In this document: positions 586 through 53,135 of the stretch, in pieces
How positions within the stretch are numbered: the stretch's first letter is position 1
Layout of the letters: each line of letters begins with the position of its first letter
Origin: a virus
Virus record (IMG/VR): IMGVR_UViG_3300029787_000011
Location: 22,744 to 82,589 of that record
Length of the DNA: 59,846 nucleotides
Strand: one strand, 5' to 3'
Made by a program: the position numbers and the translations under genes
The notes under the pieces: model-generated
Database searches by the model: none
Told to the model about the DNA's origin: nothing
What the model saw: the letters and a program-made list of their open reading frames with translations, nothing else

Positions 586-588
586 TTG

Positions 589-876
589 TCAATATGTCCC
601 TCTATATAACCATTCAGTTGATCCGTCTTCACCTATAAGAATTTCAGACTCATCTTCTGGAAAGTCATAAGGACCATCAAGTTTCTTTTTATATTCTCTC
701 TCATCTAATACTTCATTAATGAGTTGTTTCAACTCTACCTTGAGTGCATCAGATAGAAGATTCATTTTATGTGTTTCCAAAGGTGGTATAGCATCACGTT
801 GTTCTTGAAGTGATCTACCACCATCACTGTCACCATACGACATTCCCTGTGTGTTAATCACGTTGCCTCCAGTCAT
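589..876 (-). CDS. Hypothetical protein, 95 aa
   Basis: No family is recognised. The product is acidic; its middle (about residues 35-65) looks helical (LSDALKVELKQLINEVLDER) and the end is EWLYRGTY. The start overlaps the end of the upstream 97-aa gene by 23 bases, which fits translational coupling. An internal Met at residue 12 (MSYGDSDGG) is an alternative start that would remove most of the overlap. Confidence 0.6.
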   Translation of the reverse strand: MTGGNVINTQGMSYGDSDGGRSLQEQRDAIPPLETHKMNLLSDALKVELKQLINEVLDEREYKKKLDGPYDFPEDESEILIGEDGSTEWLYRGTY

Positions 877-5198: not shown

Positions 5199-5199
5199 A

Positions 5200-28527: not shown

Positions 28528-28535
28528 TATTTATG
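28528..28535 (-). promoter_or_regulatory. Late promoter CATAAATA before the 409-aa gene
   Basis: CATAAATA on the minus strand overlaps the TAA stop codon of the giant gene and stands 28 bases before the ATG of the 409-aa gene. The spacing to the next start matches the other late promoters here. Confidence 0.7.
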
Positions 28536-31500
28536 TGATTATCTCAGGGTCAACTACTTCTTCACCATATTGACTTAAATCTGGTGCAGTCCAGTCATCT
28601 GGAACAGAAGTTTCTACTGCGATGTCAGGATTTACATAACCAGTACCTGTATTACTTAGGGTGACTCCACCAACACCAACCAGTGCTCTAATATTACCTT
28701 CAAAACCAGATATAGAGTCAACTCTTACAGTAGGTCTTGTAGTATATCCAGAACCACCACCAGTAACTTGTACCTGTTTAATGAATCCAGTTGTCAACGC
28801 AGCAGTAGCAATTGCGTCTTGACCAAATACAGATCCGAGATAATCAAATGTAATTAATGAGTTAGAAGATTCAATAACAGCAACTGTTCTATCCTCAGTC
28901 TCACCCTGTATTCTAATATCATCACCAGGTTCTACAGGAGGTACAACCTCAGCAGCGTCTACGTCCGCTTCAGAACCAACGTATGAGAATGCAACGAATG
29001 TAGATCCTACACGAGGTATTTCTGAGAAGATAATTCTAGAACCAACAATCTCAAAACCAATACCAGGTTCCTGTATAACACCGTTCAATGAACAGATGAT
29101 ATTGTTCTCTGGTCTAATTGATGATGATTGTACACCATCAGTCAATGTCAATGAGTAAAATACCTCATTACGTTTTAAGTTAAATGATTGTCTTAATGAA
29201 TCAAACTCGAATGATATATCATCTAACTGTCTAAGTTTACCAACATAGAATCCTGTGAATGATGCTCCAAGATCAGGTGCTTCAGTAAACTGAATCTGAT
29301 TAGAGAATGCTGTATAGGCATTAGTTGCACCTGGTGGTTGTAGAATACCATTGATGAATATCAATAGATGTCCTGCAGGATCTGGTAGATAACTTGTACC
29401 ATTATTCTGAGATAGATTAAAGGTTGTTTGTACACCATCAAATCCTTTGAATGATCTCTTAACTCTTGCTTTAAGATCACCTTTAGTAGAAACTGCTGCC
29501 TTATAATTATCAATACTCTTGACAGCATCATTAACATCAAATACTCCTGCAACATCACTTAGATATACTCTCTTAAGAGTACCAACTGTCTTGATATCTT
29601 GAACAGTTGCAGATGCAGCACCTGCAGTTGTCACCTTAGTTGTTATAGTTGCATAACCTTGTGGGAAACTTCCTACTCCATAATCACCAACTTGATCACC
29701 ATTTGTTATTGTTCCTTGGAACTCTTGTGCGTAGATAAAGTTGTTTCCAACATCTACACCAGTAATTATTGCATAAGTATTCAAATCTTGAACACCATTA
29801 GAAATCTTATAAAGTCTATTTCCAACTTGGAATGTAGCAAGACTGGATATGATACTAATACCAAGTTTAATATATCCAGTAGATGCGATCTTAGCACCAA
29901 CTTTAAGTTCTAATCCATCATATTTAATAACATCAAGATACTGTCTAGAACTTTCAGGATAAACAACAGAGTTGAGTTCAAATGATCCTAGTAGTGATGC
30001 AGTATCAACAGTCAATGTACCACCAGTATTGTCTGTCACTGCAGCTTCGTTCTTCAAGAATGCTGATGCAGGTTGTGCACTATTTCCAGATGTATAACCT
30101 TTGAATGGAATATTATCACTGAAATCACCTAATAAATCAATGATATGAATACGACTCTCTATTGCACTAATTTGTGCAGTTGTGGAGTTAGATGAACCAA
30201 CAACATTATCAGTAATTGCCCATGGTCCTGCAGTCACCTTAACGTCAAGATACTTGTAGTTTGCATCTTCATAGAATCCATAAACAACACCAGTAATAGA
30301 AGCATTACCTTGTTTCTGTACGGTCTCATTCATAGTATAAGGACCGTCTGTTATATCACCATCAATTCTAAATCTTTGATATACCTGAACAACTTTACCT
30401 GAGTTTTCTGCAATAGATTCAAGTTCACCATAAACATTACTTGATATACCATATGCATAATCAGCATTATTCAATCCACCTGAAAGACCAACTGGAATAG
30501 TTCTAGTTCCATATAACTTAGTAGGAACAGTAATACCATTCTGAGATGTAATCTGTGTATAGTAAGTTCCTGTCTTGATCTGATTCCTAATAATATCAAG
30601 ATTGGATCTTATAACTCTACCCATTGATTTAGTAGTATAGTTTGCAGCTTCAGTTGAGTCATAGAACTTATAGAATCCTGCATTAGGTGAAGGTTCTGTA
30701 AGTGTATTATCAAGTGCCTGTTGCATGTATGTCTGAAGTGTATTAATAGCATACTGCTTGATATTATATTCATTATCAGAGTAGAATACTGTGCCGTCAC
30801 CAGACTGATAAGGATCAAGTGCACTCTTAGTAAGTTTAACACCCCAAACGTAAATACCATCTGTACCATTACCTGCATAGTTTTGAGAACCAGCTGCATT
30901 ATTAATGATAATTTTATTAGATAGTGTTGAGAAACCAAAGGAGAATGTGGTTGTAATAAATGCTCTATACCAACCATTACCTAAAGGAACTACTCCTGCA
31001 GCATCATTACTCATACCACCTTGAGGTGTAAAGATAGAACCTATAGTTCCTGCAGTTAAGTTAAGATCAAAGAAGATTCTTTGTACAGCAGATGTTCCTT
31101 CGTCAAGTGCCATCTGGAAACGAATTGATGTATATCCTGCTGCCTTAACAAATGCTGAGAATGTAAATGTCTGACTTGCAGTTGCTGAAGTAGAACCAGT
31201 ATCAAATGTCTCATTAGTAGCGTCAAATTTAACTACACCAGAGTCAAATGTCTCAAATGCATTTAAGGAGAAGTTCCTGTTAAGTGTATGAAGTGCAGTA
31301 TTAGTACTTGGTACAATTTTCTCAGAAGTAATTGTAAGATCAGGAGCAGCAATTGAGTTGTTAGTAATTGTTGCTTCAGTAGCAGTCCAATCTGTTGCAA
31401 TTGCTTCAGGATTTGTAAATTCGTTAACACCTGCAATCTGACCAGTAATATTAGATGTTAAAGTTCTAGCATGTGCTATGGTTTGTACGTTTGTTGGTTT

Positions 31501-34500
31501 GTTGTACCAGTCATATCCAGAACCAACTGTATTAACTACACCTACTGTTTTAGATGTTCTACCAACAATAGTATTACCATTTGCCCATTGTGTTCCCACA
31601 AATGGAGCAACAACTAAGAATGTTGTATCTTCATTCCATTCTAATACTTTTGCATATGCACCATTACTTGAATGAACTACCTCACCAACTGTATAGTTTC
31701 CAATATTACTTGTAAGTGTAATCTCATATGCAGTTGTTTTATCTGTAAGATCAGTTGCAATAATATCGTGTACCATATCATTAGTGATATTGGTTAAGAA
31801 TGTATCATATATCCATTGACCAGTACCAAACTGTGAGTTGACCTGATTAGTAATTTCTTCTTTATAATAATTGTAGTTGTAAAGAAGATGTTTTGCTGCA
31901 CTTCTACCTGCAAACTTAGCAGGTCCTAATAGGTTAACTGCAATCTTAATTAACTCTCTAAATCGAGTAATTACAGTAGAAATAGTAGTTGGTGATTCTG
32001 AATCTCTAACTGCAGTTTCATCAGTCTTCGTTGCAGAATATCCAGTTGGTAGAGTAAATCCACTATTGAAATCATAAAGTAAATTATTAATCGCATGCTC
32101 ACCAATAACCCCGATCTGTTCTATAGCAAAGATGAATGAAGGTAATTCCTCTTCTATTGTTTGTATTTGTAAGCCAGCAGTTAGATATACTTCCAGAGCA
32201 GCTACAGTGCTATTTTGACCACCAGTTTGTAAATCAGATATTATACCGTCAAGAAGATCTTTAAGATTATTTTGAACTATTATTTCAGTTCTACCAGTAC
32301 CAGGATAACTGTATGCGTTGTAAGATATGCCATTAAGTGTATAGTTAAATTCTGATGATGTTAGACCAGTTGCCTCTTCTACAATGTACTGTCTGTTAAA
32401 GTATAATCTATCTCCACCGATGTTGAAATCATTATTAGTAGGAGCAATCATATCATTGATTGTTGTCACTAATGTGTCAACTTCAGTTTTAACTCCATCA
32501 AAGTAATTTGCAACTCCTGCACCAGTAATATCCCAATCACCTGTAATAATATCATCAGTATTTGTATAAGTTAAATCACCAGTAATTGCTTCTTTAATAT
32601 AAACTGCAAGACGATCATGAGCATAAATTGATTGATGAATCTGTAAACGAATACGTCTTACTTCATTACTATTTCCGAGATAGAAGTTAGTTGCTTCTAC
32701 AGTTTTTGCATTACCACCATTTTCAATATCATTAGCAATTGCCTCTACAAGTAGTGTTAGGTCAGTCTTTTTCGCTAATGTTCCATCAGTAGATGTACCA
32801 TTAGCATTTCCTGGTAGTTCTTGTGCCAGTTTAGGATATCTTGTAAGCATATCAGCAGATGCCTTGTCAACAATAACACTAGCATTTGCACGAATTAAAT
32901 ATGCAGCATCTCTAAATCTATACTGCCCATCTACATCAATTTGATTTGTGTATATAAGATCATTTGCACTGTCATGATATGACACTGGGAATGGTACTTC
33001 CTTAAATCCATTAACTCTACCACCAACAAACTCAGCAGCAGGAGATACAGAAGTCACTCCAGCTAGATGATCTGTGGGAGATGCTAATATAGCATTGTTT
33101 AATGTATCTGTTAATATTGTGACTAAGTTATTTTGAGTAGTAATAACATCAGAACAATCTGATAATGAATAGAATACTTTAGTGACAGCATTTGTTGCAG
33201 ATGCAGTCCATGTATGAGTATACTGATCTTCAAGAGCAGACTTACCTACATTAATAGTAAATGTATTTGTATCGTGTGCTGTTAGTGGTAATACCTGAGC
33301 AGATGCAGGGTCAGTGGATCTTGGGTAGGTATGAGTTGTAGCATTACTATCTTTAGTACATGTGAATGTTAAAGAATTGTCTGAGATAATTACAGAGTCT
33401 CCTGCAACATCGATACCATTGCTTGTAGCAGATACGAACGTATGTGTGTAATTACCACCTGTAGATACCCCATTAGCAAGTCCAGATGCAAACTTATGTG
33501 TATAATTACCGCCTGTCTGAAGAAGTGCTCTTGTGATTCCATTACTTGTTGCAGATACAAATGTGTGTGCGTAGTTTCCACCAGTAGTTATAGAATCAGC
33601 AGTAGCAGAAACAAATATATGATTAGAAGTATTTGTTGAAGGTGTGCTTGCTAATGTCTGAACTGTGATTGTGTCATCAGTGACATCAGTAATTGTGACC
33701 GCAGTATTATAGTTAGGATCAGTAGTACGAGGATATGCATGATCTGTAGCATAGTTATCCTGAGCACATCTTAATACTATTGAATTTGTAGCAATCTTAA
33801 TTGCAGTTCCCTTTCTTAGATTATGACGACCTATTGTAAGTGTCATGAATCCTGTTGTAGGATTATAATCAACATGTGTAGGAGTAAATTTCCTTAGAGG
33901 TGATTTACCAACATTAATGCTTAGTTTATTATAGTCTACATTGAATACATTTAACCATTTACCAGTAATAGGATCAGTAGAACGAGGATATGCTTTGTTA
34001 GAACTATTACCATCCATTGTGCAACTAAATGTGACTGCACCTGCTGCTAATTGAATCTTTTCATGTTCTTTAATCTGATGTCCATACTGAACAGCGTTAG
34101 TTGCTGCAGACACAAATGTATGTGCAGAAGTATCTGAAATTGCTGTACCATCACCATTTACATTGACTGTAATTGTAGTTGCAGTTTCATTAGTGATTGT
34201 TAGATCATAATTGTATGGATAATCATTGCTGCTTGCTCTTGGATATGTCTTCTGAGCAACGTTGCTGTCTAATGCACATGTGAATGTTAAAGAATTAGGT
34301 GCGATTCTAACTGTATCACCAACACTCAAAGTATGAGATCCAATGGTCAATACCATATCACCTGTAGTAGGATTATATGTTGCATTGGTTGGAGTAAAGT
34401 TAGTAGTTGCAAATGTCAATTCCATGACACCAGTTGCTGCATCATAAGTTGCACCAGAAGGTGTGTACTGATGACCTGCAAATCCAGTCACAACGTGAGT

Positions 34501-37500
34501 AGTTGTGTTGGAAGGTGTATAACCATCAAGAGTATTAATTGTGATAGTTGAACCTGTGACAGCATCAATAGGAACTGCCTGAGCAACTAAAGGATCACCC
34601 TCTATAATTCCACCCTTAATAGCAGATACGAATGTATGAATTGTTGTATTTGTAGAAGGAATCTTATCAAGAACAACAACAGTGAATGTAGTTGTAGTTG
34701 GAACAGACGCTACAAATAACCATCTATTACTTGGATAGTCTGTAGATCTTGGATATGGATGATTAGTTGCATTACTATCTTCAGCACATGTAAATGTTAG
34801 AGATCCATCTTGGAACATTATTGGTGTGCCAGTTCTTAATCCATGTACAGCAGCAGTTGTGACTGTCATTACACCAGTTACAGGATTGTAAGTTGTTCCA
34901 GTTGTAGCAGTATGTCTATCTTGCTCTGATCTTGGATATAGATGAACTGTAGCATCACTATCCTGATCACAGGTCATCTTGATAGAATTAGGTGCTAACT
35001 TAATAGTTGAGTTTGCTTTACTTACACCACCAGATGTTGCACTTACAAATGTATGAGCAGTGACGTTAGTGGAAGGAATGCTATCTAAAACCTGTACATC
35101 AAATGTGTTTGTTGTGACGTTAGAAATAGGAATCCACTTATTACTTACAGCATCAGTAGATCTTGGATAATCATGGTTTGTAGCATTGTTATCTTGTGCA
35201 CAAGTAAATCTTAATGAGTTATCTGCAATCTTAACTTTCTCACCATTAGAGAAGTTATGACCTGCAATAGTCAATGTCATGATACCTGTTGAAGGTACAT
35301 ATGATGCATCTGTGACTGTATGAGTTGTTGGAGCAGGAAGACTATGACTTCCAATGTTTATCTCAAGTGCACCTGTGGTAGCGTTGTATGTTCCTGATTG
35401 AGGTTGATAATTAACTGTTGGTGATTTACCAATATTAACTGTGATTGTATTATCTCTCTTAGTAAGACCGTTCTCAAGAGCAGAAACAAATGTATGAACA
35501 TACTGATCAGCAACAGCACCAATACCAACATTGACTGTAAATGTATTATCTGTCTTAGCAGTAATTCTTAACCATCTCTGTGCATATGGATCTGTAGCAC
35601 GAGGATATGAATGAGTTGTCTTATTACCATCTTTAATACAACTAAATGTTAGAGAATTTAATTCAATTCTAACTTCATCAGTTAGTGTAAGTCCATGTGC
35701 ATTACTGGTAATGACCATTTCACCTGTTGTCTGGTTATATGATGCATTTGATGCAGTAAATGAAGTACCGTTAGTCCAGATTGGTAGTGATGTATTATAA
35801 CCAGGATCGTCAGTTCTTGGATAAGAGTGTATAGTTCTGAAGTTATCTTGTGAGCACTTGAATGATACTGCATCTTTGGAAAGTCTGAGTGTTTCTCCAG
35901 AACGAACCATTGAGTTAGGTAGTGCATACTTGAATACGTGAGTTGTAGTATTACTTGAAGTACCTATGTTTACAGTAAATGTATTTGTAGTGACGTTGCT
36001 TATTGCAATCCACTTATTATAGAATGGATCAGTAATTCTTGGATAAGCATGATCAGTTGCATTACTATCTTGAGCACATGTAAAGACAAGTGAATTTACA
36101 CCAAACATTACTCTATCACCAACATAGAATCCATGATTAGCAATAGTGACTGTTAGAACACCTGATGATGGATTATAAGAAGTTCCAGATTCAGGAGTAT
36201 ACTTCCAACCAGTTCTTAAATCATTGTCTCCAATGTCCATTGTTAAGAATCCAGTTTCACCATCATAAGTACCATCTGTTACTGTGTAATTTACAGTAGG
36301 AGATTTACCAACATTAATACTAAAGTTGTTTGCATCAATTCTTGTGACTTCCATCCAACCCTGTCCAGCTGGATCATCAGGACGAGGATAGGATTGTGAT
36401 ACTGTATTACCATCAGATGTACATGTCATGGTAATAGAGTTTGGTTTCAATTTAATTTGATCACCAGTTTGGAGGTCATGACTATTAGATGTAATTGTTA
36501 AAACACCAGTTGTAGCAGTGTATCCTGCATTTGATGCAGTTATTTCACGAGGTGAAAGTAATCCATGACTATTACTGGTAAGAACCATGTCACCAGTAGC
36601 AGCATTGTAGGTTGCACCTGTAGGAGTAAAGTTTACAGCAGATGGATAATCAGAATCTTTTAGAGTTCCATCATATACCTGTGTAAATGAATGACTTGTA
36701 TCTTGAATATCCCAAGGAACATTATTAATAATAAATTTAGATATCTTCTCTACAATTTCAGTTGCAAATACTTCCTGTGGAACATCACCATCAATAGTTC
36801 CTGTTGCTACTGATATTGGATTTGTTGTTCTATCAATGTAAGATGCTGATGTAGTCCAGATATGACTATTACTACCATTACGAAGATCGTCTGCTAATGC
36901 TTGTATAAGAACTTCGAGTCTTGCTAAAGCAACATTATCTCCACCTTTAACAGTATGAGCAGGGAATACCTGTTTCATAATGTATAGTGCTTCTGCTTTT
37001 ATAAGTTCTTTGTTTAGTAATATATCATCAGCAGCGTTTAAGTATCTGTGTGTTCTACCAACGAATCCAGCTGGTGCACCAGTTGTACGAGATGTTGCTA
37101 GTATTGAATCATTGTTAAACTCATCTCCAACAGCAGGAGCAACATAACCAGACCAATCTTCAGTATATGTTTGACCGTTAGTACCATCAAAATGAATTAA
37201 TAACTTAGCATTTATATCACCTTGGTGTATTCCTTGTGCAACAGTGAATGGTCCTGTATAACGGTTAGTATTAGATGCTCTAAATTCATCAATATATCCT
37301 GTAAGTCCATTAGCACCGTTATAATCCATACCAAGTCTAATTGGTTTAGCAGCAAAGTTGCTACTATCAGTTCCAGTACCAACCTCGGCACCGTTAAGAT
37401 ATATCTTAGTAGTTGTAGAAGATCTAACAATCGCTACATGATACCATGTAGCATTATTAAGAGTAGTAGCACCAGATGTGACAAGATCTGATCCATTTAC

Positions 37501-40500: not shown

Positions 40501-43500
40501 AATAACATCTAATCTACCATTCTTAATTGTTGCCTCAGCAATAGCACCAGAACCTCCACCACCAGTAATAACAACTGCAGGTGCCTGTGAATATCCAGTA
40601 CCTGGATCTGTTATAGTAATACTATCAAGTATACTTGTAGAAGTAAGCTGTGCGTTTATTGGGAAAGATATTTCAGGGCGTAGCGTATAATCATGTGGAT
40701 AATCATAACCAAAGTTATTGTTCTTAAGTTTCTTAATCTTACCAACATTAGCACCTTTAGTAAATACAGATGCTCCTGTACCTGCAGATGGTATAACAAC
40801 TACTAATTCAGCACCTGATCCAGTCAAACCCGTTCCAAGAATACCTGGTATAGCATTAATATCAATAGATGCTGTAGTGTAATTTTTACCTGATGATGTG
40901 ACAACAACGTTGTTTATCTGACCTGGTATTGTTGCTCCTGCAGCGTCAGTTCCGTCTGCAACAGTAATAGAAACAAATCCACCTTCACCATCACCAGTTA
41001 TTGATACACCACTATATGTTCCAACTGCATATTCAGTACCTGGTGCATTAATTTGTACTCTTTCTATTTGTCTACTTGATGTAATACCACTAACTATAGG
41101 CAACTTAGTATAGAAACCGCCAGGATTAACAATACGAATATCACCAATAGAACCAACCGCTTTAGTGGAACTTGTCATGTAAGATGCTTGTGATATAGTT
41201 GCAGCACCTTCTGGTTCATTAACTAATGGGAATTTAAGTATATCTGCACCCTTAGTAATAGTAGCACCTGCAATAGAACTAATCTCAAATGTTCCGTTAT
41301 ATGGAGAATCTACAACATCAAGGTAGCTACCAGGTACCACTGGACTATCAGTGCCTGTTCTTGATGGATCGAAGTAGTATGATATATTTGTTACTATACT
41401 TCTATCAACTTTAAGTTTAACTGTAGGAGTTGGTTGTCCACCACCAGTTACACCTGGTGTACCTACTCTTTCTATAGAGTTGAATGAGTATTCAAGTTTG
41501 TATAGATTATCTTTTGCAAATGATAAGTTTCCACCTGTCATAGATGAATGACTTAGGTCAAACAAATACTGATGACCATAATACATCTTTAATGTAGGTG
41601 ATTTAATAAAGATACTTACAGCAGATGCTGATGTAGCAGGAGCAGTTAGAGCAGCTGTCTTTAACTTGTAAGTAAATTCAAGAGGACTTACAACAGTCTG
41701 TACAGCAAATGCACCATCATATTCATCATATGAAGTGGCACCAATAGTTTGTGTTGGGTTTCCATCAACATAAACCATATCACCTGTACTCAAGTAATGA
41801 CTTGTGTTAGTAATAACATACACTTCATCACTATTTGCTACAGCAGTTGCTTGAAGAATCTTAGTTAGATTGGCAACTAGAGTAATTTTAAGAACACCTG
41901 TTAATCCACTAATTGTTGCTTGGGAGTAATCACTATTCCATGTAATTGCACCAGAACCTATAGTGACTACAGATCCAACAATATATGCAGATGATCCTGC
42001 AACTTGATCAATTCTTACGGAGTAATCTGCATCAGCATATGGTTTAAATGTTGCAAATGAATCAAGATTACCAGTACAGGAGTTAATAGTAAACTTAGCA
42101 TCTCCATTACCACCACTAACTACTACTTCATCTCCAACTTTATACCCAGATCCTGCAGCTCCACCTGAATCAATTGAGATGGATTGTATAACACCACCAG
42201 ATGCAGTGTAGTCAACTAATAATCCAGATGCCTCTCCATTAGTTGTAGTTGTAGCAACACTATCCCCAGTATTAGGATAACCAGTACCTGCTGCACTTAG
42301 AGCAATTGTTGCAGGTATATCTGCTATCGTACCATCTAAATCAAAACCATCCAAGTTGATGATAAATGTGCCAGGTGTTTGATTATTAATTTCTGCAAAT
42401 GTATAATTTGTTATTTCATTAACATCAGCAGGGATTGCACCAGTAATACCATAACTAGACTGTTCATTAAATTGTGCAGTAGATAATTGACCAGTGTTTA
42501 GATCATTACTCCAAGCATTATTGTTAACTGCTAAGTAAATCTTGTTATTTGCATCATCCTTTCTAATAATATAACCACTATTAACAAACTGTCCAGAAGA
42601 ATTGTTTAATACTAACTTAGAACCAACAGTAAAATTAAATGATTGGTTGACAGTCAATTCTTGGACATTATCAATCTTAACTGTAGGTGTGACCTTGAAG
42701 TAGTATCTATCTTTAACAACCGCAGTGACTTGTAATTTTTGTGAACCTGGTGAAGGAACAGTAGCAGTTCTAGAACTCCAGATATCTTGAACATGAGTTA
42801 ATGTCTCAGTATCCTCAGTCATAGTTGTAGTGCTATCATCAAAGTCTAATGACTGATAACCTGCATCTCCAAGAGCATAACCATTTACATTGATTGTAAG
42901 AGGTGAACCAGTGACAGCTGTCACAGCAGTTCTTGTAAAGGTTATACCAGTAGTAGGTTTCTTACCTTGATTTCCTAATCTTACTGCATCAGCATTTCTA
43001 TCAGTCTTAAGACCAAATCCTGCATATTCAATATAATCATAACGACTCATTGCATCAGTAAACCATGCATCATCAACCCAGTTATATGCAAGACCATATG
43101 CACCTGCAGTAGGTAATGCAAGGATATCACTTGGTACAGTTGGTGTAATTGCTCTATTTCTTAGACGTAAATGATCTATATGATATTGACCCTGTTCATT
43201 AGATCTAAACTGACCTAGTGTACCATTTGCACCAGGTATATTACCAAAGTATAGATCTTTAGCACCTAACGAAGTGCCTGATATAGTTCCAGTAAGAACT
43301 TCTATTCCGTTAACATATGCTTTGAATGTATCACCACTCTTAGTTACTGCAATCGCTTGCCATGTATTATCGGCATATAAATTTGTTTGAGATGATGTTA
43401 GAGAACTACCTGCAGAGTTGATACTTGTGCTACTATTAGTAATAGTCATCGTCAAAGGACCACTCGGACCTGCAGAAGACTGATCATAGTATAAATGTAG

Positions 43501-46500
43501 TCCACCAGTAGATACTGTAGCATCACCTATAGCAATTAATGTCTCTTTAGGCTGGGAGAATGAATTACTATTTGTAGCATCCTTGAATATAAAGAATTCT
43601 AATGTCCAATCTCCTGCAAGTTTTTGTCCTAAGTCTGAACCTGCAAATTTAATATTAGTATTTGTCCAAACACTTGGTGCAGATGTTTGTGCACCAAGTA
43701 TCTTACCCCATCCATTTGTAGCATCATAACTGAATGAATCACCAGTATTTGTGAGAGCAGCAGTATAATGTGTTGTAGTGTCTGTAAGAGCACTAGATGT
43801 AAATGGTATAACAAACTCATTTCTATTCCAATATGTCTGACCAAATGTGTGAACATCACCAGATGTATCAACATCCAATCCATGAATTTGTAAACCTTCT
43901 ATATTGTCTGCAGTAAATTCTGTAGTTGTATGATTTTTAATTAATCCATCATATCCAATCTTTAATACATCAACAGTCTTATACTCATTAGTATTATTAT
44001 CTCTAGTATATGCAATATTAAGATCTCCAAATAAGTCAATAGCAGACTTACCTGCAGATGTGACATCTCTACCAGGTGTTAGATAACGATAGTTCCATAT
44101 TAATGTACCTGCACTATCAATTTTACCAACCCAAATACTATCTCTATCAGTATCATTTGCTTTTTGTCTACATGTAGCATTAATATAAATTTCATTAAAC
44201 TCATCTATGGCAATGCTAGTGTCTATCATAGAATGTAAAGAACTAGCATAAGTGTTGATCCAGTCAACAGTAATAGCATTGACTCCAATTTGACACTTAC
44301 CAACAGCAACATCAACATCTAAAGCATTGACTGTAGATGCAGTCTCCATACAGAAGTAAACATCCTGTGAACCTGTTGTTTGGTTATAATTGCAGATAAT
44401 ATCTGTAATTCTTTCAGATTTGTTTGCAGAAGCAAATTTTCTCTTAATAGCAAAATTACCTGTAGTATCAATAGATGCTATAAAGGCATCATCAGGATTT
44501 GCTGAGTTTGTATTTGTATAACCACCGATTATATAACGAGTAGAACTATACTTTTTAATTATTGTTATATTATCAGCACGAGTACCACCAGAGATACCTG
44601 CATATGCTTTTTGGAAACTGAGTGTGGCACTTAGACCGTTTGCTGCTTGTGTATACTTACAGAGGATTATATCAGGATTATATGCATTAAGAATATTACT
44701 ATTAGGTTTATTGATACCTACAACCCAAACATCATTACCATCAACATATAGTGAGTTAAACTCTGCGTAATTTAATCCACCAGAGAGTTCAAGAGTTTTT
44801 GACCATTCTTTAACACCAGTTGCTGATAATTTAGAGACAAATCCGACGACGTTGCCACTTGAGTCTTTTGTTTTACCACAGATGAATACTTCCTTGTTAT
44901 CGTTAACAAAGGTATCGTTGACTTTAACATAATTGTTATTATTAATGAATGATAGATAATAATCTGCTTTTTTAAAGATTTGTGGGTGTGATAATATAAC
45001 TCTTGGATTAGCTGAATATCCAGAACCAGAATTGATAATATTGACAGTATCAATAGAACCTACACTAGATACAACTGCTTGCAATTCACCATCTTGACCG
45101 CTAGTACTGTCAATAATAATTGTAGGAGGAATATCGGTATTATATCCAGATCCAGTTTGTGTAATCTGTATTTCTTCTATACCTTTATATTGACGAACAG
45201 TAAACTGTTTGTTAGTATTATCCATTACAGGAGTATAATCAACAAATATACTGTCACCTGCTGCTAGGTTGTGAGGACTAGAAGTTGTTAGTACACCAAA
45301 GTTATTACCACTTATACTTTCAAATGTATATGCACTAACTGTTTCCCCTTTAATACGAGAGACACGTGCAGAAGCACCATCACCACCAGTATTTGTATTA
45401 TCAAAAACTAATCTATCATTTACCTGATATGATATACCTGCGTTTTCAACAGTAAATCCAGTGACGTTAGCATCTTCAAATTTATTAGTTGTTTCTACTT
45501 CAATATCAACTTTTGAGTCAAATCTAACTTTAGGGAAGTAATCAAATAGTTGTAAAGGTGATTCTTCAAATAATTGACCTAGATTAACGTCTGCTGATTC
45601 TTCAGCATCTATCTGTCCATCTCTATTAGTATCTTCTGGATCAAATAATAGTATTAGACCATCTTCAGTTGTTAAAGCATTAGTAGAAGCGTTAGGTGCT
45701 CTTTCAACATCAATATCAACATTTTCATATGGATCACGATATCTTACAACACCAGTTGGAATATTTTGCTGCACAGCACTTGTACTTAAGTTCCAAGTAT
45801 CAACAACAGAGTTGAAGTTAGGACCTAAGACATAAGGAAATTCTGGATTACCTGCCTCTGTAGCATCAATAGTAACGAAGTAGCAATATCTACCTGTAGG
45901 ATAGTCAGGTGTTTTACAGAATCTACCATTGTATTGATCTAAATCACCAAGGTTAAAGATATACTCATAGTCTTCAACAAAATTACCTGCTGCCTCTGCA
46001 CTAAGCAAAGGACCTGAAGTTCTTACAGGAGTTGGATTAGTTGAGGATACAACAAGAGCAGGTTGAACTCTATATGATGTTCTTAGTCTTGTAATAGAAG
46101 ATGCTTGATCTGTAGGATCAGTATATCCATAAGGACCGTAGATTGGGTTGCCATCAAATGCCCAACCAATAATAGGAGAGTGAGCTAACTGTGTTTCTTG
46201 TTCAGTAATAGTTCCTGCAACTACTTCTTGTAAATTATCACCAAGAATGAAACGTAATTTTTGTGGATTTGATAGGTGAGCATATTCACCACCATACTGG
46301 TTATTATATCCTTCAAATACTCCACCCTTAGCAGAGTCTAACGTAGATGTTGCTTGTAAGTTATATGTCCACTTAAATACTGAAGGTGTAAAGATTGCAC
46401 CTTGACCAACAGATGTCATATTGATAAGAGTAGTTCCTTGAACGTACCCAATACCACGGTTGATAATAGTAATACTTGTCACTCTACCTGCGTTTTCACC

Positions 46501-49500
46501 ATCAGTGTCTATGGCAGCACGAGCAACAGCACCAAATCCAACACCTTGAATACTAACTTCAGGTGCTGTCGTATATCCTGAACCTGCAGAAATGATAGCA
46601 ATAGAGATTATTCTACCGTTTTGTACAATGGGTTGTGCCACTGCTCCTGAACCAGAAGATAGACTTACACTCGGTGCACTGGTATAAGAAGTACCACCAC
46701 TGGTAATATTAACAGTATTAATAGGACCTCTAACACTTGCAGTACCCGCAGCACCCGTTCCGCCTCCACCAACAATAGTGATAGATGGCTGCGAAACATA
46801 ACCTGTACCACCAGAGTTAATTAAAATACGGCTTACAGCACCTTTAGTAATAATAGCAGTCGCTGCTGCTCCTGAACCGCCTCCACCAACGATTGATACT
46901 AGAGGAGAAGATGTATAACCAGAACCACCTGCTGTGACTGTAATCTCAGAGATAGAACCATTAACTATAACAGTAGCAGTAGCACCTGTACCGCCACCAC
47001 CAGAAATAGTGATAACAGGAGGAGATGCTGCATCATAACCTTGTCCCGCATTAGTAATTGCAATACTTGTAATAGCACCAAAGGTTTTACTCTGTGTTGA
47101 CTTATATGACCATACAGAAACACCATTTACCCATGTACCAATAGGACCTGAAGAAATAGCGGACTTAGTTGATATTGTAGTAGGTAATGCAGGGAATCTG
47201 TTTAATTTACGTTGGTTGCCAGGTAAAAGAGCAGAACCAGGAAAAGGACCTATAGAATAGTTTGGAATACCAGTTGATGCAACGTAAGTATGATTATCAT
47301 TGAAGAATGAGTTTTGTATATTAGTAGTGTAAGGTCCTACTGCATTTAAAATTGTACTGGTATCAGACTTACCTTTGTTTAGGTCAACAGATACAAGAAT
47401 ATTACCTTGAGGTACGATTGATGCAGGTTGTGGTAGTGCATATTGGAATACCGTCTCACTATCTCTCGATGTGACAGTAAATGTTCCATTATAGATGATT
47501 GGGTTTGCACCATAGACTGTAACCTGATCTCCAACTAACAAACCATGATTATTAGCACAAGTAACAGTTGCAGATTGATTATTTACACCACCAAATGTAA
47601 TACCACTAACAGTAATCAGTTTTTTAACGTTATATAACCAAGTTGTAAGTAAAGGAGATGTTCCAGTACCACCTAACTTAGAAACTGTTAGTTTATCACC
47701 TTGTAAGTAGTAAGAACCTGTATCAGTTAGAGTTGTCTGTTGTGCATCAACAATACCAACAACATTCATCACAACTTCTTGTGGTGTATCCTTATTAATC
47801 TTAACTTGGAAGTTTGATGCAACTTCTGTAGCAGAATCCCAGTCCTCTACAACTCCATTTGCCGAACGAGTACACTCAATGAACTGGTTGAGTGATTTTT
47901 CCTTATATTGTACTAATTCTGTAACAGTGCCTGAACCAATTACAAACTCACCGTTTCTCTCTGGCCACCCAATAGTAGAGTCAACCGTAATGATTGAGTC
48001 AGTTGCACTTAATGGTTCAGCAAGTTTTGTTTTATAAGGTACAGTGAACGTTCCTGTAATAGTTTCTTCTGATAGAACAAGTTCAAATATTTCTACTGTA
48101 GATGTTTTAATTGAGATGTAATTTTCAACTAACGCAGATGCTGCTAGTACATTAGGATCCGCAATATCTGCTTCCTGTTGTAGAAGACCATCTCTAATGT
48201 CTGTAGCGAGTCCAGAAACCTTCGTTGCTCTTAAAATAGTATCAATAGCCCATGTTGCTGCAGATGGTTTGATAATCTGGTCTTTTGGATATGATATACT
48301 TACTGTTTCACCGTATAATAACTTGAATAGATACGCAATACTGAATGATGTACCCTTTGCAGAGTAAAAATCTTTAATAGTCTTAATTGCTGTACGAACA
48401 TCGATCTTAGTATAGTCTAGTTCTGGTACATCAGGTAAGAACTGTTGTGTATACTTGTCTAGTAAACGTTTTACAAATAATGCATCAAGACATTTTACCT
48501 CTGTATCAACAGCAGCTGCAGCAGCAGTAGTATCATTAGAGAATACTGCATTACCATCTTCCGTGTATTCTACGATACCAGATGCAGCACGTGCACATCC
48601 TACGAACTGTGCTTTATTATATTCTTTACCCGCTTGATTAACTTTAAAACCTGTGACCTCATTTAAACCTATTTCCGCAGATGCTTCAGCACTTGTAGGT
48701 GCTTGGATTACAACAGAAGGGGGATTTGCAGAAGAATATCCAGTTCCGAACGCACTTACGTTAATATCTGTAATTGCACCGTTAAATATCGCAGCAGTTG
48801 CGGTAGCACCTGTACCACCTGCGTATGCTCCTGTACCATCTACTCTATTATCAACAATATAAACTGAAGGAACTTCATCATATCCGCTTCCTCCGTTAAG
48901 TATATCGATACGAATGACTCTTCCGTCTCCGTCAACTACTGTTTGTAATACTTGTGCACCAACAGGATCTACAATTGATACTCTTGGAACGGATGTATAA
49001 CCTTGTCCTGCGTTAATTGTAGTAATAGATGCAATAGTTCCGTCAGACGCTAAGACTGTTTGGAAAGATGCTCTGATTGGATTATTTCCAGTTGGTTCGT
49101 CAACATATATTGCAGGAGGGGTTGTATATCCAAATCCTGCATTTACTAATGTTAAACCACCACTAATAGATCCACTAGATAACGTCGGAGTGGCAACTGT
49201 AGCACCGCCAGGTTGTCGAAAAGTAATTCTAGGTGTGAATGTATATCCTGAACCTGATCCAACTAATTCTACACCAGTAACAGAACCATTAGTCACTGTT
49301 GCTTTTAGTGTTGCTTGAGTAGAACCTGTTTTTGTAGGAGATTCTATTTGAACAACAGGAGGGTTTGTATCACTATATCCTTTACCACCATCAAGTAGAG
49401 TGACGTTCTTAATACCGTTTACTAATGCAGATGCAGCACCACCAGATCCAGTAGTTGTGTTGATAGAAACTTTTGGTGGATATTCAAATCTATAATTACT

Positions 49501-50463
49501 ACCATTTACGTTAGTTGAGATACTTGTAAGTTGACCTGCATCATTTACTCGTGCAAAACCTTCCGCACCACTACCAAAAGAAGGAACAGGTGCTTCTATA
49601 GAGTATAATGATAAAAATCTACCGTTTGTAGGTGCGGTAGCAAATATAAAGTCTGCACCATCTATAAAGTAGTCTACTTTAGGTATTAATAATCTTTTGT
49701 CGTATATTGCAACTACATATTCATCTACAATTGGTTCATATGCTAAACCATTACTTGTTATTCTAAATTGTGTCTTACCTTCACCGAAAGAGTTTGAAAT
49801 ATTATCGAGTCCAATAATCTGATTCTCTACAAAACCATCTAGGTATGTAATAAAGGTGTTTATAGCGTCATCAGAGGGAATCTTTGTTCTAGGAGCAGTT
49901 GCATAGGTAATAGTTGTTCCAGACACCGTGTAGTCGGTCACAGGGGTCAATACCTCGCCATATACAGAAACAATCAAATGTTGTGCAGATGGGGGTGCTA
50001 TAGGATTGTCTTGAGATGTTAGATTAAACTGAGTGGTAGTGCCATCAAAGTCATTAATAGGAGTTGCAAGGTTAACAAACTTAAGTTTTACCTGATCGTA
50101 TGAAATACCTGGTGAAAGAGCAATGTTTGGAGAACTGGTTATACTCTCATAGTAGATAACTTCATTACCTATGAGAATAGATCCAGATTTTTCTAGAAAC
50201 TGGTCAATCGACTCTACAACGATTGTGTCACTAGTAATATTAATTGCTTCTACTAATTTTGTCCTACCATCTAATATACCAACGTCTAACCTATCAATAT
50301 CAAGGTATCCAAGGAAATTGTTTAGAATATTCTGCCCAAGACCAGTTTTCTCTTGAGATTGGTAGTAATACTCAAGAAATCGGTTAAAAAGTGGGTAGTC
50401 AGACTCGATAAATTCGGGAGTCTGGGCAACAACTGCCTGAGAGACTTTATTGATATTTGTCAT
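28531..50463 (-). CDS. Giant multidomain virion protein in gp7 position, 7310 aa
   Basis: One uninterrupted 21.9-kb frame lies between gp6 and gp8, where T4 has gene 7. The N-terminus (EFIESDYPLFNRFLEYYYQS) and about 665-725 (VRTAIKTIKDFYSAKGTSFS, then FKLLYGE) look like a baseplate-bound base, as in cyanomyovirus wedge proteins. Later segments are: Gly/Tyr repeats (about 300-600 and 1125-1320); a YHYH-like domain (about 1425-1550, with YCYF for YHYH); an EF-hand loop D1611-E1622 (DTNRDGQIDAEE); a probable beta-propeller (about 1825-2220); LamG-like domains (about 2240-2440 and 4235-4420); eleven Cys/YPR repeats (about 4610-5760); and beta modules up to the C-terminus. It is probably a very long fibre or adhesin attached to the baseplate. 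Whether it replaces gp7 is inference. Confidence 0.8.
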   Translation of the reverse strand: MTNINKVSQAVVAQTPEFIESDYPLFNRFLEYYYQSQEKTGLGQNILNNFLGYLDIDRLDVGILDGRTKLVEAINITSDTIVVESIDQFLEKSGSILIGNEVIYYESITSSPNIALSPGISYDQVKLKFVNLATPINDFDGTTTQFNLTSQDNPIAPPSAQHLIVSVYGEVLTPVTDYTVSGTTITYATAPRTKIPSDDAINTFITYLDGFVENQIIGLDNISNSFGEGKTQFRITSNGLAYEPIVDEYVVAIYDKRLLIPKVDYFIDGADFIFATAPTNGRFLSLYSIEAPVPSFGSGAEGFARVNDAGQLTSISTNVNGSNYRFEYPPKVSINTTTGSGGAASALVNGIKNVTLLDGGKGYSDTNPPVVQIESPTKTGSTQATLKATVTNGSVTGVELVGSGSGYTFTPRITFRQPGGATVATPTLSSGSISGGLTLVNAGFGYTTPPAIYVDEPTGNNPIRASFQTVLASDGTIASITTINAGQGYTSVPRVSIVDPVGAQVLQTVVDGDGRVIRIDILNGGSGYDEVPSVYIVDNRVDGTGAYAGGTGATATAAIFNGAITDINVSAFGTGYSSANPPSVVIQAPTSAEASAEIGLNEVTGFKVNQAGKEYNKAQFVGCARAASGIVEYTEDGNAVFSNDTTAAAAAVDTEVKCLDALFVKRLLDKYTQQFLPDVPELDYTKIDVRTAIKTIKDFYSAKGTSFSIAYLFKLLYGETVSISYPKDQIIKPSAATWAIDTILRATKVSGLATDIRDGLLQQEADIADPNVLAASALVENYISIKTSTVEIFELVLSEETITGTFTVPYKTKLAEPLSATDSIITVDSTIGWPERNGEFVIGSGTVTELVQYKEKSLNQFIECTRSANGVVEDWDSATEVASNFQVKINKDTPQEVVMNVVGIVDAQQTTLTDTGSYYLQGDKLTVSKLGGTGTSPLLTTWLYNVKKLITVSGITFGGVNNQSATVTCANNHGLLVGDQVTVYGANPIIYNGTFTVTSRDSETVFQYALPQPASIVPQGNILVSVDLNKGKSDTSTILNAVGPYTTNIQNSFFNDNHTYVASTGIPNYSIGPFPGSALLPGNQRKLNRFPALPTTISTKSAISSGPIGTWVNGVSVWSYKSTQSKTFGAITSIAITNAGQGYDAASPPVITISGGGGTGATATVIVNGSISEITVTAGGSGYTSSPLVSIVGGGGSGAAATAIITKGAVSRILINSGGTGYVSQPSITIVGGGGTGAAGTASVRGPINTVNITSGGTSYTSAPSVSLSSGSGAVAQPIVQNGRIISIAIISAGSGYTTAPEVSIQGVGFGAVARAAIDTDGENAGRVTSITIINRGIGYVQGTTLINMTSVGQGAIFTPSVFKWTYNLQATSTLDSAKGGVFEGYNNQYGGEYAHLSNPQKLRFILGDNLQEVVAGTITEQETQLAHSPIIGWAFDGNPIYGPYGYTDPTDQASSITRLRTSYRVQPALVVSSTNPTPVRTSGPLLSAEAAGNFVEDYEYIFNLGDLDQYNGRFCKTPDYPTGRYCYFVTIDATEAGNPEFPYVLGPNFNSVVDTWNLSTSAVQQNIPTGVVRYRDPYENVDIDVERAPNASTNALTTEDGLILLFDPEDTNRDGQIDAEESADVNLGQLFEESPLQLFDYFPKVRFDSKVDIEVETTNKFEDANVTGFTVENAGISYQVNDRLVFDNTNTGGDGASARVSRIKGETVSAYTFESISGNNFGVLTTSSPHNLAAGDSIFVDYTPVMDNTNKQFTVRQYKGIEEIQITQTGSGYNTDIPPTIIIDSTSGQDGELQAVVSSVGSIDTVNIINSGSGYSANPRVILSHPQIFKKADYYLSFINNNNYVKVNDTFVNDNKEVFICGKTKDSSGNVVGFVSKLSATGVKEWSKTLELSGGLNYAEFNSLYVDGNDVWVVGINKPNSNILNAYNPDIILCKYTQAANGLSATLSFQKAYAGISGGTRADNITIIKKYSSTRYIIGGYTNTNSANPDDAFIASIDTTGNFAIKRKFASANKSERITDIICNYNQTTGSQDVYFCMETASTVNALDVDVAVGKCQIGVNAITVDWINTYASSLHSMIDTSIAIDEFNEIYINATCRQKANDTDRDSIWVGKIDSAGTLIWNYRYLTPGRDVTSAGKSAIDLFGDLNIAYTRDNNTNEYKTVDVLKIGYDGLIKNHTTTEFTADNIEGLQIHGLDVDTSGDVHTFGQTYWNRNEFVIPFTSSALTDTTTHYTAALTNTGDSFSYDATNGWGKILGAQTSAPSVWTNTNIKFAGSDLGQKLAGDWTLEFFIFKDATNSNSFSQPKETLIAIGDATVSTGGLHLYYDQSSAGPSGPLTMTITNSSTSINSAGSSLTSSQTNLYADNTWQAIAVTKSGDTFKAYVNGIEVLTGTISGTSLGAKDLYFGNIPGANGTLGQFRSNEQGQYHIDHLRLRNRAITPTVPSDILALPTAGAYGLAYNWVDDAWFTDAMSRYDYIEYAGFGLKTDRNADAVRLGNQGKKPTTGITFTRTAVTAVTGSPLTINVNGYALGDAGYQSLDFDDSTTTMTEDTETLTHVQDIWSSRTATVPSPGSQKLQVTAVVKDRYYFKVTPTVKIDNVQELTVNQSFNFTVGSKLVLNNSSGQFVNSGYIIRKDDANNKIYLAVNNNAWSNDLNTGQLSTAQFNEQSSYGITGAIPADVNEITNYTFAEINNQTPGTFIINLDGFDLDGTIADIPATIALSAAGTGYPNTGDSVATTTTNGEASGLLVDYTASGGVIQSISIDSGGAAGSGYKVGDEVVVSGGNGDAKFTINSCTGNLDSFATFKPYADADYSVRIDQVAGSSAYIVGSVVTIGSGAITWNSDYSQATISGLTGVLKITLVANLTKILQATAVANSDEVYVITNTSHYLSTGDMVYVDGNPTQTIGATSYDEYDGAFAVQTVVSPLEFTYKLKTAALTAPATSASAVSIFIKSPTLKMYYGHQYLFDLSHSSMTGGNLSFAKDNLYKLEYSFNSIERVGTPGVTGGGQPTPTVKLKVDRSIVTNISYYFDPSRTGTDSPVVPGSYLDVVDSPYNGTFEISSIAGATITKGADILKFPLVNEPEGAATISQASYMTSSTKAVGSIGDIRIVNPGGFYTKLPIVSGITSSRQIERVQINAPGTEYAVGTYSGVSITGDGEGGFVSITVADGTDAAGATIPGQINNVVVTSSGKNYTTASIDINAIPGILGTGLTGSGAELVVVIPSAGTGASVFTKGANVGKIKKLKNNNFGYDYPHDYTLRPEISFPINAQLTSTSILDSITITDPGTGYSQAPAVVITGGGGSGAIAEATIKNGRLDVIIVKDPGAGYSSTPTVNLRSSFNYVINLDLGLLQFAFPHGIANGSAVTLNVVDTGDGADFPLSSGATGRLNASTTYYAISGTANSLEDDQLKLAITASNAALGDALSFSNAGTGRQQVLTESFGGSATANVITSTFLEGELVYQGDSLATATAQGYVSTNSGWQVGPRILKIVDYTGDFASNQRLTGVISKSSGIITDLKIARGVLEIGSITKTTGQFIDDVGKPSEIIQKIQDSYYYQDFSYAVKSSTSISEWKEILIKNVHPASFKVFGELNLNEYGFIPNKETFFSLTKSVELAQEAIVPNIQNFALVEPVYTAFNNTEVLFRQKRLTSSENILTSVVQRIDDISTLFDGERTAFPLQVNQTNIVANANQLMIVLNGVVQTPGTAFSIQQDSIVFVEAPQPPASVKYVNVTINLIQTVDLTFSNISGIFPSIGNVVVGTSSNARLTVTKITGNTITGFITQGTFILPTAGGGGELCTVSATGFSANIATRTVDININNVTTGNFPATADITAGTVFTGGTSGAQLTITQINSTTISGTVSIGNFQANEIITATLSGGAAFSGTTYTVTGGVESGGLFIFGEQVTNFDGDTAKVEQVNLQTGQETPLAQLRYTVGLSTTSIEVVAYRTDNTAADAVVPTGTFTLTKNYQFGSEIVQVTAVVQNSDSTTLTVVRAQNGTTAVSHQEDVPVYGTDISVTNSLTLSKTAGTYQSTPGLFDIQLNDYIIAAQSGVVAQVTASSVYQDPTTNEFIGQVNISPGSSFFGLLFNRITSQTYPNVVLDNIANSQVNIVNYTDNNTPFNENFPANEQINNYIISYDQSTGALTEGEDIRNYKLEYGNSSGDFNAAEDAKIRKLTFTDKKGSGFFVAGQNIRIGSIAEGEGTKAEVVGYSQARKTVYLGKIGRCQYNGLDVHAIAFTGNAQISTGAFKFGGSSLLVDGTGDYINVASSSEFAWGSNAFTIDFWVNATSISGTKTLVDQRENATEVAVRIYLEAAQIRYNVNGSDLVTSGATTLNNATWYHVAIVRSSTTTKIYLNGAEVGTGTDSSNFAAKPIRLGMDYNGANGLTGYIDEFRASNTNRYTGPFTVAQGIHQGDINAKLLIHFDGTNGQTYTEDWSGYVAPAVGDEFNNDSILATSRTTGAPAGFVGRTHRYLNAADDILLNKELIKAEALYIMKQVFPAHTVKGGDNVALARLEVLIQALADDLRNGSNSHIWTTSASYIDRTTNPISVATGTIDGDVPQEVFATEIVEKISKFIINNVPWDIQDTSHSFTQVYDGTLKDSDYPSAVNFTPTGATYNAATGDMVLTSNSHGLLSPREITASNAGYTATTGVLTITSNSHDLQTGDQIKLKPNSITMTCTSDGNTVSQSYPRPDDPAGQGWMEVTRIDANNFSINVGKSPTVNYTVTDGTYDGETGFLTMDIGDNDLRTGWKYTPESGTSYNPSSGVLTVTIANHGFYVGDRVMFGVNSLVFTCAQDSNATDHAYPRITDPFYNKWIAISNVTTNTFTVNIGTSSNTTTHVFKYALPNSMVRSGETLRLSKDAVSFKCSQDNFRTIHSYPRTDDPGYNTSLPIWTNGTSFTASNASYNQTTGEMVITSNAHGLTLTDEVRIELNSLTFSCIKDGNKTTHSYPRATDPYAQRWLRITAKTDNTFTVNVGIGAVADQYVHTFVSALENGLTKRDNTITVNIGKSPTVNYQPQSGTYNATTGALEINIGSHSLPAPTTHTVTDASYVPSTGIMTLTIAGHNFSNGEKVKIADNSLRFTCAQDNNATNHDYPRSTDAVSNKWIPISNVTTNTFDVQVLDSIPSTNVTAHTFVSATSGGVSKANSTIKLAPNSIKMTCDQDSDATVHLYPRSEQDRHTATTGTTYNPVTGVMTVTTAAVHGLRTGTPIMFQDGSLTFTCAEDSNATNHPYPRSTDYPSNRWLFVASVPTTTTFTVVVLDKIPSTNTTIHTFVSAIKGGIIEGDPLVAQAVPIDAVTGSTITINTLDGYTPSNTTTHVVTGFAGHQYTPSGATYDAATGVMELTFATTNFTPTNATYNPTTGDMVLTIGSHTLSVGDTVRIAPNSLTFTCALDSNVAQKTYPRASSNDYPYNYDLTITNETATTITVNVNGDGTAISDTSAHTFVSAATNAVQYGHQIKEHEKIQLAAGAVTFSCTMDGNSSNKAYPRSTDPITGKWLNVFNVDYNKLSINVGKSPLRKFTPTHVDYNPTTGFMTLTIGRHNLRKGTAIKIATNSIVLRCAQDNYATDHAYPRTTDPNYNTAVTITDVTDDTITVQTLASTPSTNTSNHIFVSATADSITTGGNYAHTFVSATSNGITRALLQTGGNYTHKFASGLANGVSTGGNYTHTFVSATSNGIDVAGDSVIISDNSLTFTCTKDSNATTHTYPRSTDPASAQVLPLTAHDTNTFTINVGKSALEDQYTHTWTASATNAVTKVFYSLSDCSDVITTQNNLVTILTDTLNNAILASPTDHLAGVTSVSPAAEFVGGRVNGFKEVPFPVSYHDSANDLIYTNQIDVDGQYRFRDAAYLIRANASVIVDKASADMLTRYPKLAQELPGNANGTSTDGTLAKKTDLTLLVEAIANDIENGGNAKTVEATNFYLGNSNEVRRIRLQIHQSIYAHDRLAVYIKEAITGDLTYTNTDDIITGDWDITGAGVANYFDGVKTEVDTLVTTINDMIAPTNNDFNIGGDRLYFNRQYIVEEATGLTSSEFNYTLNGISYNAYSYPGTGRTEIIVQNNLKDLLDGIISDLQTGGQNSTVAALEVYLTAGLQIQTIEEELPSFIFAIEQIGVIGEHAINNLLYDFNSGFTLPTGYSATKTDETAVRDSESPTTISTVITRFRELIKIAVNLLGPAKFAGRSAAKHLLYNYNYYKEEITNQVNSQFGTGQWIYDTFLTNITNDMVHDIIATDLTDKTTAYEITLTSNIGNYTVGEVVHSSNGAYAKVLEWNEDTTFLVVAPFVGTQWANGNTIVGRTSKTVGVVNTVGSGYDWYNKPTNVQTIAHARTLTSNITGQIAGVNEFTNPEAIATDWTATEATITNNSIAAPDLTITSEKIVPSTNTALHTLNRNFSLNAFETFDSGVVKFDATNETFDTGSTSATASQTFTFSAFVKAAGYTSIRFQMALDEGTSAVQRIFFDLNLTAGTIGSIFTPQGGMSNDAAGVVPLGNGWYRAFITTTFSFGFSTLSNKIIINNAAGSQNYAGNGTDGIYVWGVKLTKSALDPYQSGDGTVFYSDNEYNIKQYAINTLQTYMQQALDNTLTEPSPNAGFYKFYDSTEAANYTTKSMGRVIRSNLDIIRNQIKTGTYYTQITSQNGITVPTKLYGTRTIPVGLSGGLNNADYAYGISSNVYGELESIAENSGKVVQVYQRFRIDGDITDGPYTMNETVQKQGNASITGVVYGFYEDANYKYLDVKVTAGPWAITDNVVGSSNSTTAQISAIESRIHIIDLLGDFSDNIPFKGYTSGNSAQPASAFLKNEAAVTDNTGGTLTVDTASLLGSFELNSVVYPESSRQYLDVIKYDGLELKVGAKIASTGYIKLGISIISSLATFQVGNRLYKISNGVQDLNTYAIITGVDVGNNFIYAQEFQGTITNGDQVGDYGVGSFPQGYATITTKVTTAGAASATVQDIKTVGTLKRVYLSDVAGVFDVNDAVKSIDNYKAAVSTKGDLKARVKRSFKGFDGVQTTFNLSQNNGTSYLPDPAGHLLIFINGILQPPGATNAYTAFSNQIQFTEAPDLGASFTGFYVGKLRQLDDISFEFDSLRQSFNLKRNEVFYSLTLTDGVQSSSIRPENNIICSLNGVIQEPGIGFEIVGSRIIFSEIPRVGSTFVAFSYVGSEADVDAAEVVPPVEPGDDIRIQGETEDRTVAVIESSNSLITFDYLGSVFGQDAIATAALTTGFIKQVQVTGGGSGYTTRPTVRVDSISGFEGNIRALVGVGGVTLSNTGTGYVNPDIAVETSVPDDWTAPDLSQYGEEVVDPEIIT
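33180..36640 (-). repeat. Eleven Cys/YPR repeats in the giant protein
   Basis: Units of roughly 70-130 residues share a strand YNPTTGxMxLTIGxHxL, a segment SLTFTCAxDxNATxHxYPRS and a closing T-x-NTFTVNV-x-T-H-x-FVSA. I count eleven copies of the Cys...YPR core, for example LVFTCAQDSNATDHAYPRIT and LTFTCTKDSNATTHTYPRST. Copies differ mainly between these anchors. The motif also occurs in fibres of other marine phages, so it is a known but uncharacterised module. Confidence 0.85.
46500..47090 (-). repeat. Five tandem GGGGTGA beta repeats in the giant protein
   Basis: Five units of about 37 residues follow the scheme GYxSxPxVxIxGGGGxGAxA plus a short I-x-x-I/V-x-I strand, for example GYTSSPLVSIVGGGGSGAAA and GYVSQPSITIVGGGGTGAAG. 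The regular length suggests a solenoid or beta-helix. Similar units appear in the 1445-aa protein and gp8. Confidence 0.8.
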
Positions 50464-53051: not shown

Positions 53052-53135
53052 CTACTTCTTGAATACTTTTAACTTTGTAAGGACAAAAAGGGATAAAATT
53101 ACCCAAAATGCTATTTCTAATCCGTAATTGTTCAT
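53052..53135 (-). CDS. Membrane micropeptide, 27 aa
   Basis: The frame NNYGLEIAFWVILSLFVLTK plus LKVFKK has one transmembrane helix (residues 5-20) and a basic end. Its ATG overlaps the oxygenase stop (ATGA), which argues for a coupled gene. No function is known; the very short length keeps confidence moderate. Confidence 0.5.
   Translation of the reverse strand: MNNYGLEIAFWVILSLFVLTKLKVFKK

Follow-up and report, generated by a model that had tools for sequence, protein, structure and literature searches.

A 7310-codon virus gene is an orthologue of T4 gene 7 with its core in three pieces

How a single gene of 21.9 kb comes to stand at the place of T4 gene 7, which encodes a baseplate wedge protein of 1032 aa (close to the 1030 or so residues given in an earlier reading made from the letters alone, here called the sequence-only reading), is the question raised by the stretch of DNA analysed here. 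This stretch (the window) comprises 59,846 bases, all free of N, of a linear virus record of 92,438 bases that is itself a fragment. The coordinates 28531-50463 given in the sequence-only reading were borne out, with the correction that the gene lies on the minus strand, starting with an ATG at 50463 and running for 7310 codons to a single stop at its terminus, so that the predicted product has 7310 aa and a mass of 778.7 kDa. The plus-strand reading of the same bases has frequent stops and was rejected. An uninterrupted frame of this length had been claimed, and it was confirmed by translation, by shuffling and by comparison with the isolate P-SSM4. When these 21.9 kb were shuffled 50 times, stop-free runs reached 162 codons at most, and the GC fraction by codon position is 0.17 at third positions versus 0.47 at first and 0.45 at second. 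Comparison with the P-SSM4 gene, which has 89.6% nucleotide identity, gave a dN/dS of 0.15 for the gene as a whole and of 0.05-0.27 per bin in 15 of 15 bins; purifying selection thus acts along the whole gene, and these low values together with the shuffle limit indicate that the gene is real and is kept at full length. A chimera of several genes joined by assembly error, which the sequence-only reading had allowed for and which has the unusual length as the one point in its favor, was excluded and has a vanishingly small probability, since P-SSM4 carries the same whole gene with only four gap columns over its full length, and residues 1-1000 are shared with P-SSM4, P-SSM3 and P-RSM3 at 92.5-93.6% identity.

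The gene begins 8 bases past the end of gp6 (662 aa, phrog_219, 50472-52460), which is preceded by gp25 (139 aa, phrog_261 and P-SSM4 gp25, 52460-52879), and it therefore adjoins gp6 and gp25 as T4 family gp7 genes do. In the direction of reading it is followed by a gp9-like wedge/tail-fibre connector (409 aa, phrog_677 and PF07880, 27271-28500), a wedge subunit of PHROG 708 (1445 aa), a gp8-like wedge protein (510 aa, phrog_438 and P-SSM4 gp8, 21364-22896) and a protein of 2415 aa at the place of VrlC; gp25, gp6, the gp9-like gene and the gp8-like gene are, like the giant gene, on the minus strand. The gene order in P-SSM4 is identical and carries these names. The proposal that the giant gene lies between gp6 and gp8 was thus right for gp6 and has to be amended for gp8, the next gene downstream being the gp9-like one.

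Three further loci of the window deserve mention in their own right. At 1612-2277 (minus strand), where the structural cluster ends, a protein of 222 aa matches S-adenosylmethionine lyase (PF23780, E 6.3e-7), and at 7645-8094 a 132-bp unit is repeated in tandem, in 3.4 copies, within the gene of a structural protein of 2529 aa. For the product of 53132-53686 (minus strand), both P-SSM4 and PHROG 274 give the label DNA endonuclease V, and its Pfam match is to a 2OG-Fe(II) oxygenase (PF13640, E 1.6e-7, above the cut-off); going by this match, the denV label appears to be wrong.

The giant protein belongs to a known family. All four pieces in which it was searched match phrog_701, a family of virion structural proteins, with E 0 each, and their best stretches run from profile position 1 to 6135 of 6136, covering most of the protein. 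Its orthologue in P-SSM4, PSSM4_080, is 7312 aa long and already annotated as gp7; it has the same neighbours, a length within 2 residues and 91.6% identity over the full length, and differs by point changes and the four gap columns only. Residues 1-1000 are matched in 476 of 50,697 phage records, mostly those of Synechococcus and Prochlorococcus phages. A giant gp7 gene is therefore already known and annotated in isolates, and that of the window is not unique. Position and homology together identify the giant gene as the gp7 gene, in line with the place that it had been given at the outset.

What relates a protein of this size to T4 gp7 is a core in three blocks, found at residues 1-62 (window 50278-50463), 641-808 (48040-48543) and 3497-3612 (39628-39975), all on the minus strand. 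Block 1 is a predicted helix-turn-helix, with low-confidence helices in the structure model; block 2 is probably accompanied by the first part of a domain corresponding to domain V of T4 gp7, and the end of that domain would precede block 3, both assignments being made by hhalign to a short gp7. HMMs of the blocks were built from marine and related phages with T4 and RB43 left out. The block 2 HMM matches T4 gp7 at 725-759 with 30.3 bits (best of 1000 shuffles, 5.9), and its profile, likewise made without T4, found T4 gp7 as the top match among 177,635 PDB sequences (E 4.9e-7, residues 709-759), followed by the gp7 of a T4-like phage (E 1.1e-6); hhalign of block 2 against T4 gp7 gave E 1.2e-6, which places the core in the T4 family. 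Block 3 is strong among marine gp7s and marginal against T4, where 14.2 bits at 865-892 compare with 12.9 for the best of 1000 shuffles (hhalign, E 2.9e-4). Pfam places the helical domain, domain V and domain VI of T4 gp7 (Gp7_helical, Gp7_5th and Gp7_6th) at 643-689, 766-861 and 920-1012, so that these bracket blocks 2 and 3 as expected, with domain V between the two and domain VI after them. Block 1 is significant in 20 of 22 gp7s and was not found by its HMM in T4 (-1.6 bits) or RB43 (-3.3 bits); it is expected to be the element of the core bundle that matches the T4 helical domain at 643-689. In the giant, Pfam gave no match to domain VI.

The Pfam family of phage baseplate wedge subunits, PF23786, gave a concordant result, with three collinear matches to the giant (profile positions 4-52 at block 1, followed by 170-221 and then by 235-280 at block 3), all below the family cut-off, and it matched nothing else in the record from which the window is taken. 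Profiles were needed for these relationships to appear: direct phmmer searches of pieces of the window against the PDB found no gp7, and a family profile of short gp7s matched the PDB weakly (E 0.24), its three pieces being collinear with the gp7 of 9f4a. T4 gp7 shares with the giant a clear block 2, the block order and the gene position, block 3 being marginal; it differs in having about 640 residues ahead of the core and a domain V of 96 residues, whereas in the giant the core comes first and the inserts measure about 580, 2690 and 3700 residues. The short marine gp7s (Melnitz-2, 896 aa; HTVC008M, 1016 aa) have the three blocks in the same order with only 71-109, 356-492 and 194-210 residues in the corresponding slots, and a Melnitz-type profile matches the giant on either side of slot 2.

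The same order, 1-2-3, was found by best match in all 22 gp7 proteins compared, the match of block 1 in T4 and RB43 not being significant. These proteins were picked non-randomly from search listings, and 18 of them (17 for block 1) trained the block HMMs, leaving T4, RB43, S-SZBM1 and HTVC008M as independent cases. They were accompanied by two larger sets of 80 loci each: in the first, 57 loci with near-full spans were translated, all of them open, and 45 were kept for alignment, and in the second 63 were translated, again all open, and 32 were kept. Each of 22 phage records (14 plus 8) was matched by the block 2 profile exactly once (the record of the window is a fragment and that of P-SSM4 is complete), and there is no second gp7 in any of them, which upholds the claim that a separate gp7 gene is missing.

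These results bear on a published account of the family. A 2020 paper states that cyano- and pelagimyophages are without gp7, none having appeared among their protein clusters, and that VrlC is its replacement (PMC7029224). Such a loss is highly improbable: all 22 records have, within one long frame, a match to the gp7 core, with E 1.2e-24 or better in 20 of the 22, HTVC008M included, and with E 5.5e-10 for T4 and 9.0e-10 for RB43, both outside the profile training set, while VrlC occurs in addition to gp7 and not in its stead. Judged from these profile matches, the evidence disagrees with the printed statement (PMC7029224), because the pelagiphage HTVC008M too has the core blocks, in its protein of 1016 aa. 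The gp7 homologue of this Pelagibacter phage (2436-5486 of NC_020484) is labelled head closure Hc2. Within one open-access literature collection, no printed account of a split gp7 core was found.

Beyond its core, the giant has additional sequence divided among three slots, whose lengths are about 580, 2690 and 3700 residues. Among the 22 gp7s, slot 1 has two states (-25 to 109 or 573-591 residues), while slot 2 ranges over 100-2794 and slot 3 over 2-4952 residues, and the proteins form a graded series: Cr30 (767 aa), Melnitz-2 (896), phiN3 (1006), HTVC008M (1016), RB43 (1027), T4 (1032), S-CREM2 (1937), S-H34 (1942), S-RIM44 (3328), S-CAM9 (3884), S-SCSM1 (4120), P-TIM68 (4307), P-HM2 (4454), P-SSM2 (5195), S-SM1 (6180), ACG-2014b (6422), S-SZBM1 (6619), ACG-2014d (6817), P-SSM7 (7124), the window (7310), P-SSM4 (7312) and P-RSM6 (8573). 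The last of these (108-25829 of its record) is the largest of the set mainly through a longer slot 3, and it has 18 copies of a repeat that is present ten times in the gp7 of the window. In a tree built from 259 columns of the core blocks, the eight gp7s with a long slot 1 form one clade with 99% support, and most deeper branches, on which the succession of growth in slots 2 and 3 depends, have 41-70% support.

The sequence-only reading had proposed that a wedge protein at the N-terminus was fused to a giant fibre. An end-to-end fusion of this kind would account for the gp7-core sequence at the N-terminus and for the roughly 3,700 residues of slot 3, but the proposal did not hold up, as the core is spread in three pieces over the first half of the protein with the extra sequence between and after them. 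Block 3 lies at 3497-3612, past more than 2,600 inserted residues, and the gp7s of about 1.9 k residues show the same split with slot 3 nearly empty (2 residues in S-CREM2, 37 in S-H34); fusion to a tail fibre is accordingly regarded as improbable, and a split gp7 core is the reading followed below.

Where the second slot interrupts the core was approached with structure models. The AlphaFold model of a short marine gp7 (locus L108, 896 aa, 32 alignment rows) has a mean pLDDT of 54, mostly below 50 in the core blocks and 62-94 by tens of residues over 241-610, except at 401-460. In a Foldseek search with this model against 350,542 chains, the first two ranks were the gp7 of a Klebsiella phage (E 1.5e-3) and that of T4 (E 2.2e-3), and VIA aligned 79 residues within 233..609 of the model to T4 gp7 763-843 (Z 9.1, 2.4 A) and the model to 5hx2_A, a chain named gp7 (Z 8.8). 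According to the model, the slot-2 domain of L108 corresponds to T4 domain V, and the spread of the 79 aligned residues over so long a part of the model implies that this domain carries an insert inside. By hhalign, residues 664-808 of the window protein align to L108 160-298 (E 3.8e-19) and residues 3497-3596 to L108 575-673 (E 3.9e-22), and because these segments flank domain V in L108, slot 2 of the giant (809-3496) most likely sits inside domain V, as read through this chain of two comparisons. The model of window residues 1-830 has a confident beta-rich insert at about 66-620 between two helical parts of low confidence; confidence is low for the core blocks in both models, and gp7 was absent from the Foldseek top 50 obtained with the model of 1-830.

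The contents of the slots, all on the minus strand, are modular. Slot 1 (residues 63-640, 48544-50277) holds two adaptor-like modules and six GSGY repeats. Slot 2 (39976-48039) contains a YHYH domain (residues 1365-1535, 45859-46371; PF14240, E 5.9e-32), described as a predicted metal-dependent hydrolase in a review of jumbo phages (PMC7824862), and a concanavalin/laminin G-like domain (residues 2283-2441, 43141-43617; PF13385, E 8.3e-7). Slot 3 is a C-terminal extension at the place of T4 domain VI (residues 3613-7310, 28534-39627) with a second concanavalin/laminin G-like domain (residues 4259-4398, 37270-37689; PF13385, E 1.6e-21), an array in which a repeat of about 76 residues occurs ten times (residues 4644-5740, 33244-36534) and, close to the C-terminal end, a pair of adaptor-like modules (residues 7006-7156, 28996-29448). 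The whole protein has five adaptor-like modules, 18 GSGY repeats and the ten repeats, none of which occurred in 20 shuffled copies, and the stretch 4590-5700 is mostly absent, like much of the ten-repeat array, from S-SM1 and ACG-2014b. Repeat modules of the giant recur in the window at 4275-5198, 21364-22896 and 22933-27270 (the head-closure-like, gp8-like and 1445-aa wedge genes), where they are seen as cross-matches to PHROG 701, 460, 2885 and 708. In the model of 1-830, residues 210-294 gave by Foldseek and VIA mainly small matches, to adaptor domains of tailspikes and fibres; the match to the docking domain of the tailspike TSP4 (PMC8825819) has Z 8.0 over 72 residues and possibly lies at the level of chance, and a role in docking is put forward as a lead only. 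The best-conserved parts are the core and, with the last two adaptor-like modules among them, the last 300 or so residues (28534-29490), where dN/dS is 0.05 and identity across six relatives is 48-98%; because this end is so well conserved, it may bind something fixed. The description of the protein as a mosaic of adhesin modules thus stands as to its modularity, and the inserted sequence probably includes host-binding parts.

Published mass spectrometry has detected giant gp7 orthologues as long as 6619 aa in virions. In S-SZBM1, the 6619-aa protein S-SZBM1_208, which contains all three core blocks, was detected with 71 peptides and 13.5% coverage (PMC9146016), ORF122 of S-CREM2 with 91 unique peptides (PMC10665884), and T4-GC969 of S-SM1 is likewise reported (PMC3037559), the genome record giving it as SSM1_102 with 6180 aa. 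The chain might still be cut during or after assembly, which would leave the core and the display parts as separate polypeptides in the virion. The published coverage, 13.5-27.2% and given without positions (PMC9146016, PMC10665884), would accord with cutting, but each of the 22 proteins has retained one uninterrupted frame; cutting is considered unlikely, and as a matter of processing it is compatible with the protein being the gp7 orthologue.

The explanation that very probably applies as a whole is orthology to T4 gene 7, with a three-piece core in the wedge beside gp6 and with inserts at three exits that would form the periphery and contact the host. The three core pieces would fold together with two chains of gp6 to build the baseplate wedge, like the small gp7 homologues, and the extra domains would emerge at three places, one separating the helical hairpin from block 2, one within domain V and one past block 3. 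The T4 baseplate has six wedges. Six are also described for Vibrio phage XM1 (PMC10457771), and six copies of the giant would amount to 4.67 MDa per baseplate. It is probably the inserted modules, of the YHYH, concanavalin-like, adaptor-like and repeat types, that make up the periphery of the baseplate, provide docking sites for other fibres and reach the host surface, and they may thereby do work that in T4 is given to separate proteins. The published description of XM1 invites comparison: its gp17, a minimal gp7 of the wedge with 242 aa, attaches separate tail spikes through a short loop (80-106) and its C-terminus (201-242) (PMC10457771), and slots serving as attachment points in the giant would, by analogy, fit these sites. 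The giant may use XM1-like exits for parts that are built in. Going further, and more tentatively, the host-recognition periphery may have grown from gp7 itself at three fixed exits of the core, comparable to the spike-holding places of XM1 (PMC10457771), so that receptor contact and wedge opening would be linked in one chain of about 780 kDa; this is a possibility that we hold to be less likely than its alternatives.

What is added to the known gene is therefore its anatomy, namely a conserved gp7 core in three pieces and a graded series of sizes from 767 to 8573 residues. This anatomy contradicts the absence of gp7 printed for cyano- and pelagimyophages (PMC7029224), and it joins genes that had been placed in different clusters (T4-GC 107, 397, 507, 643 and 969). 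It also pinpoints where, in phages that are very common in the ocean, the host-binding parts are to be sought.
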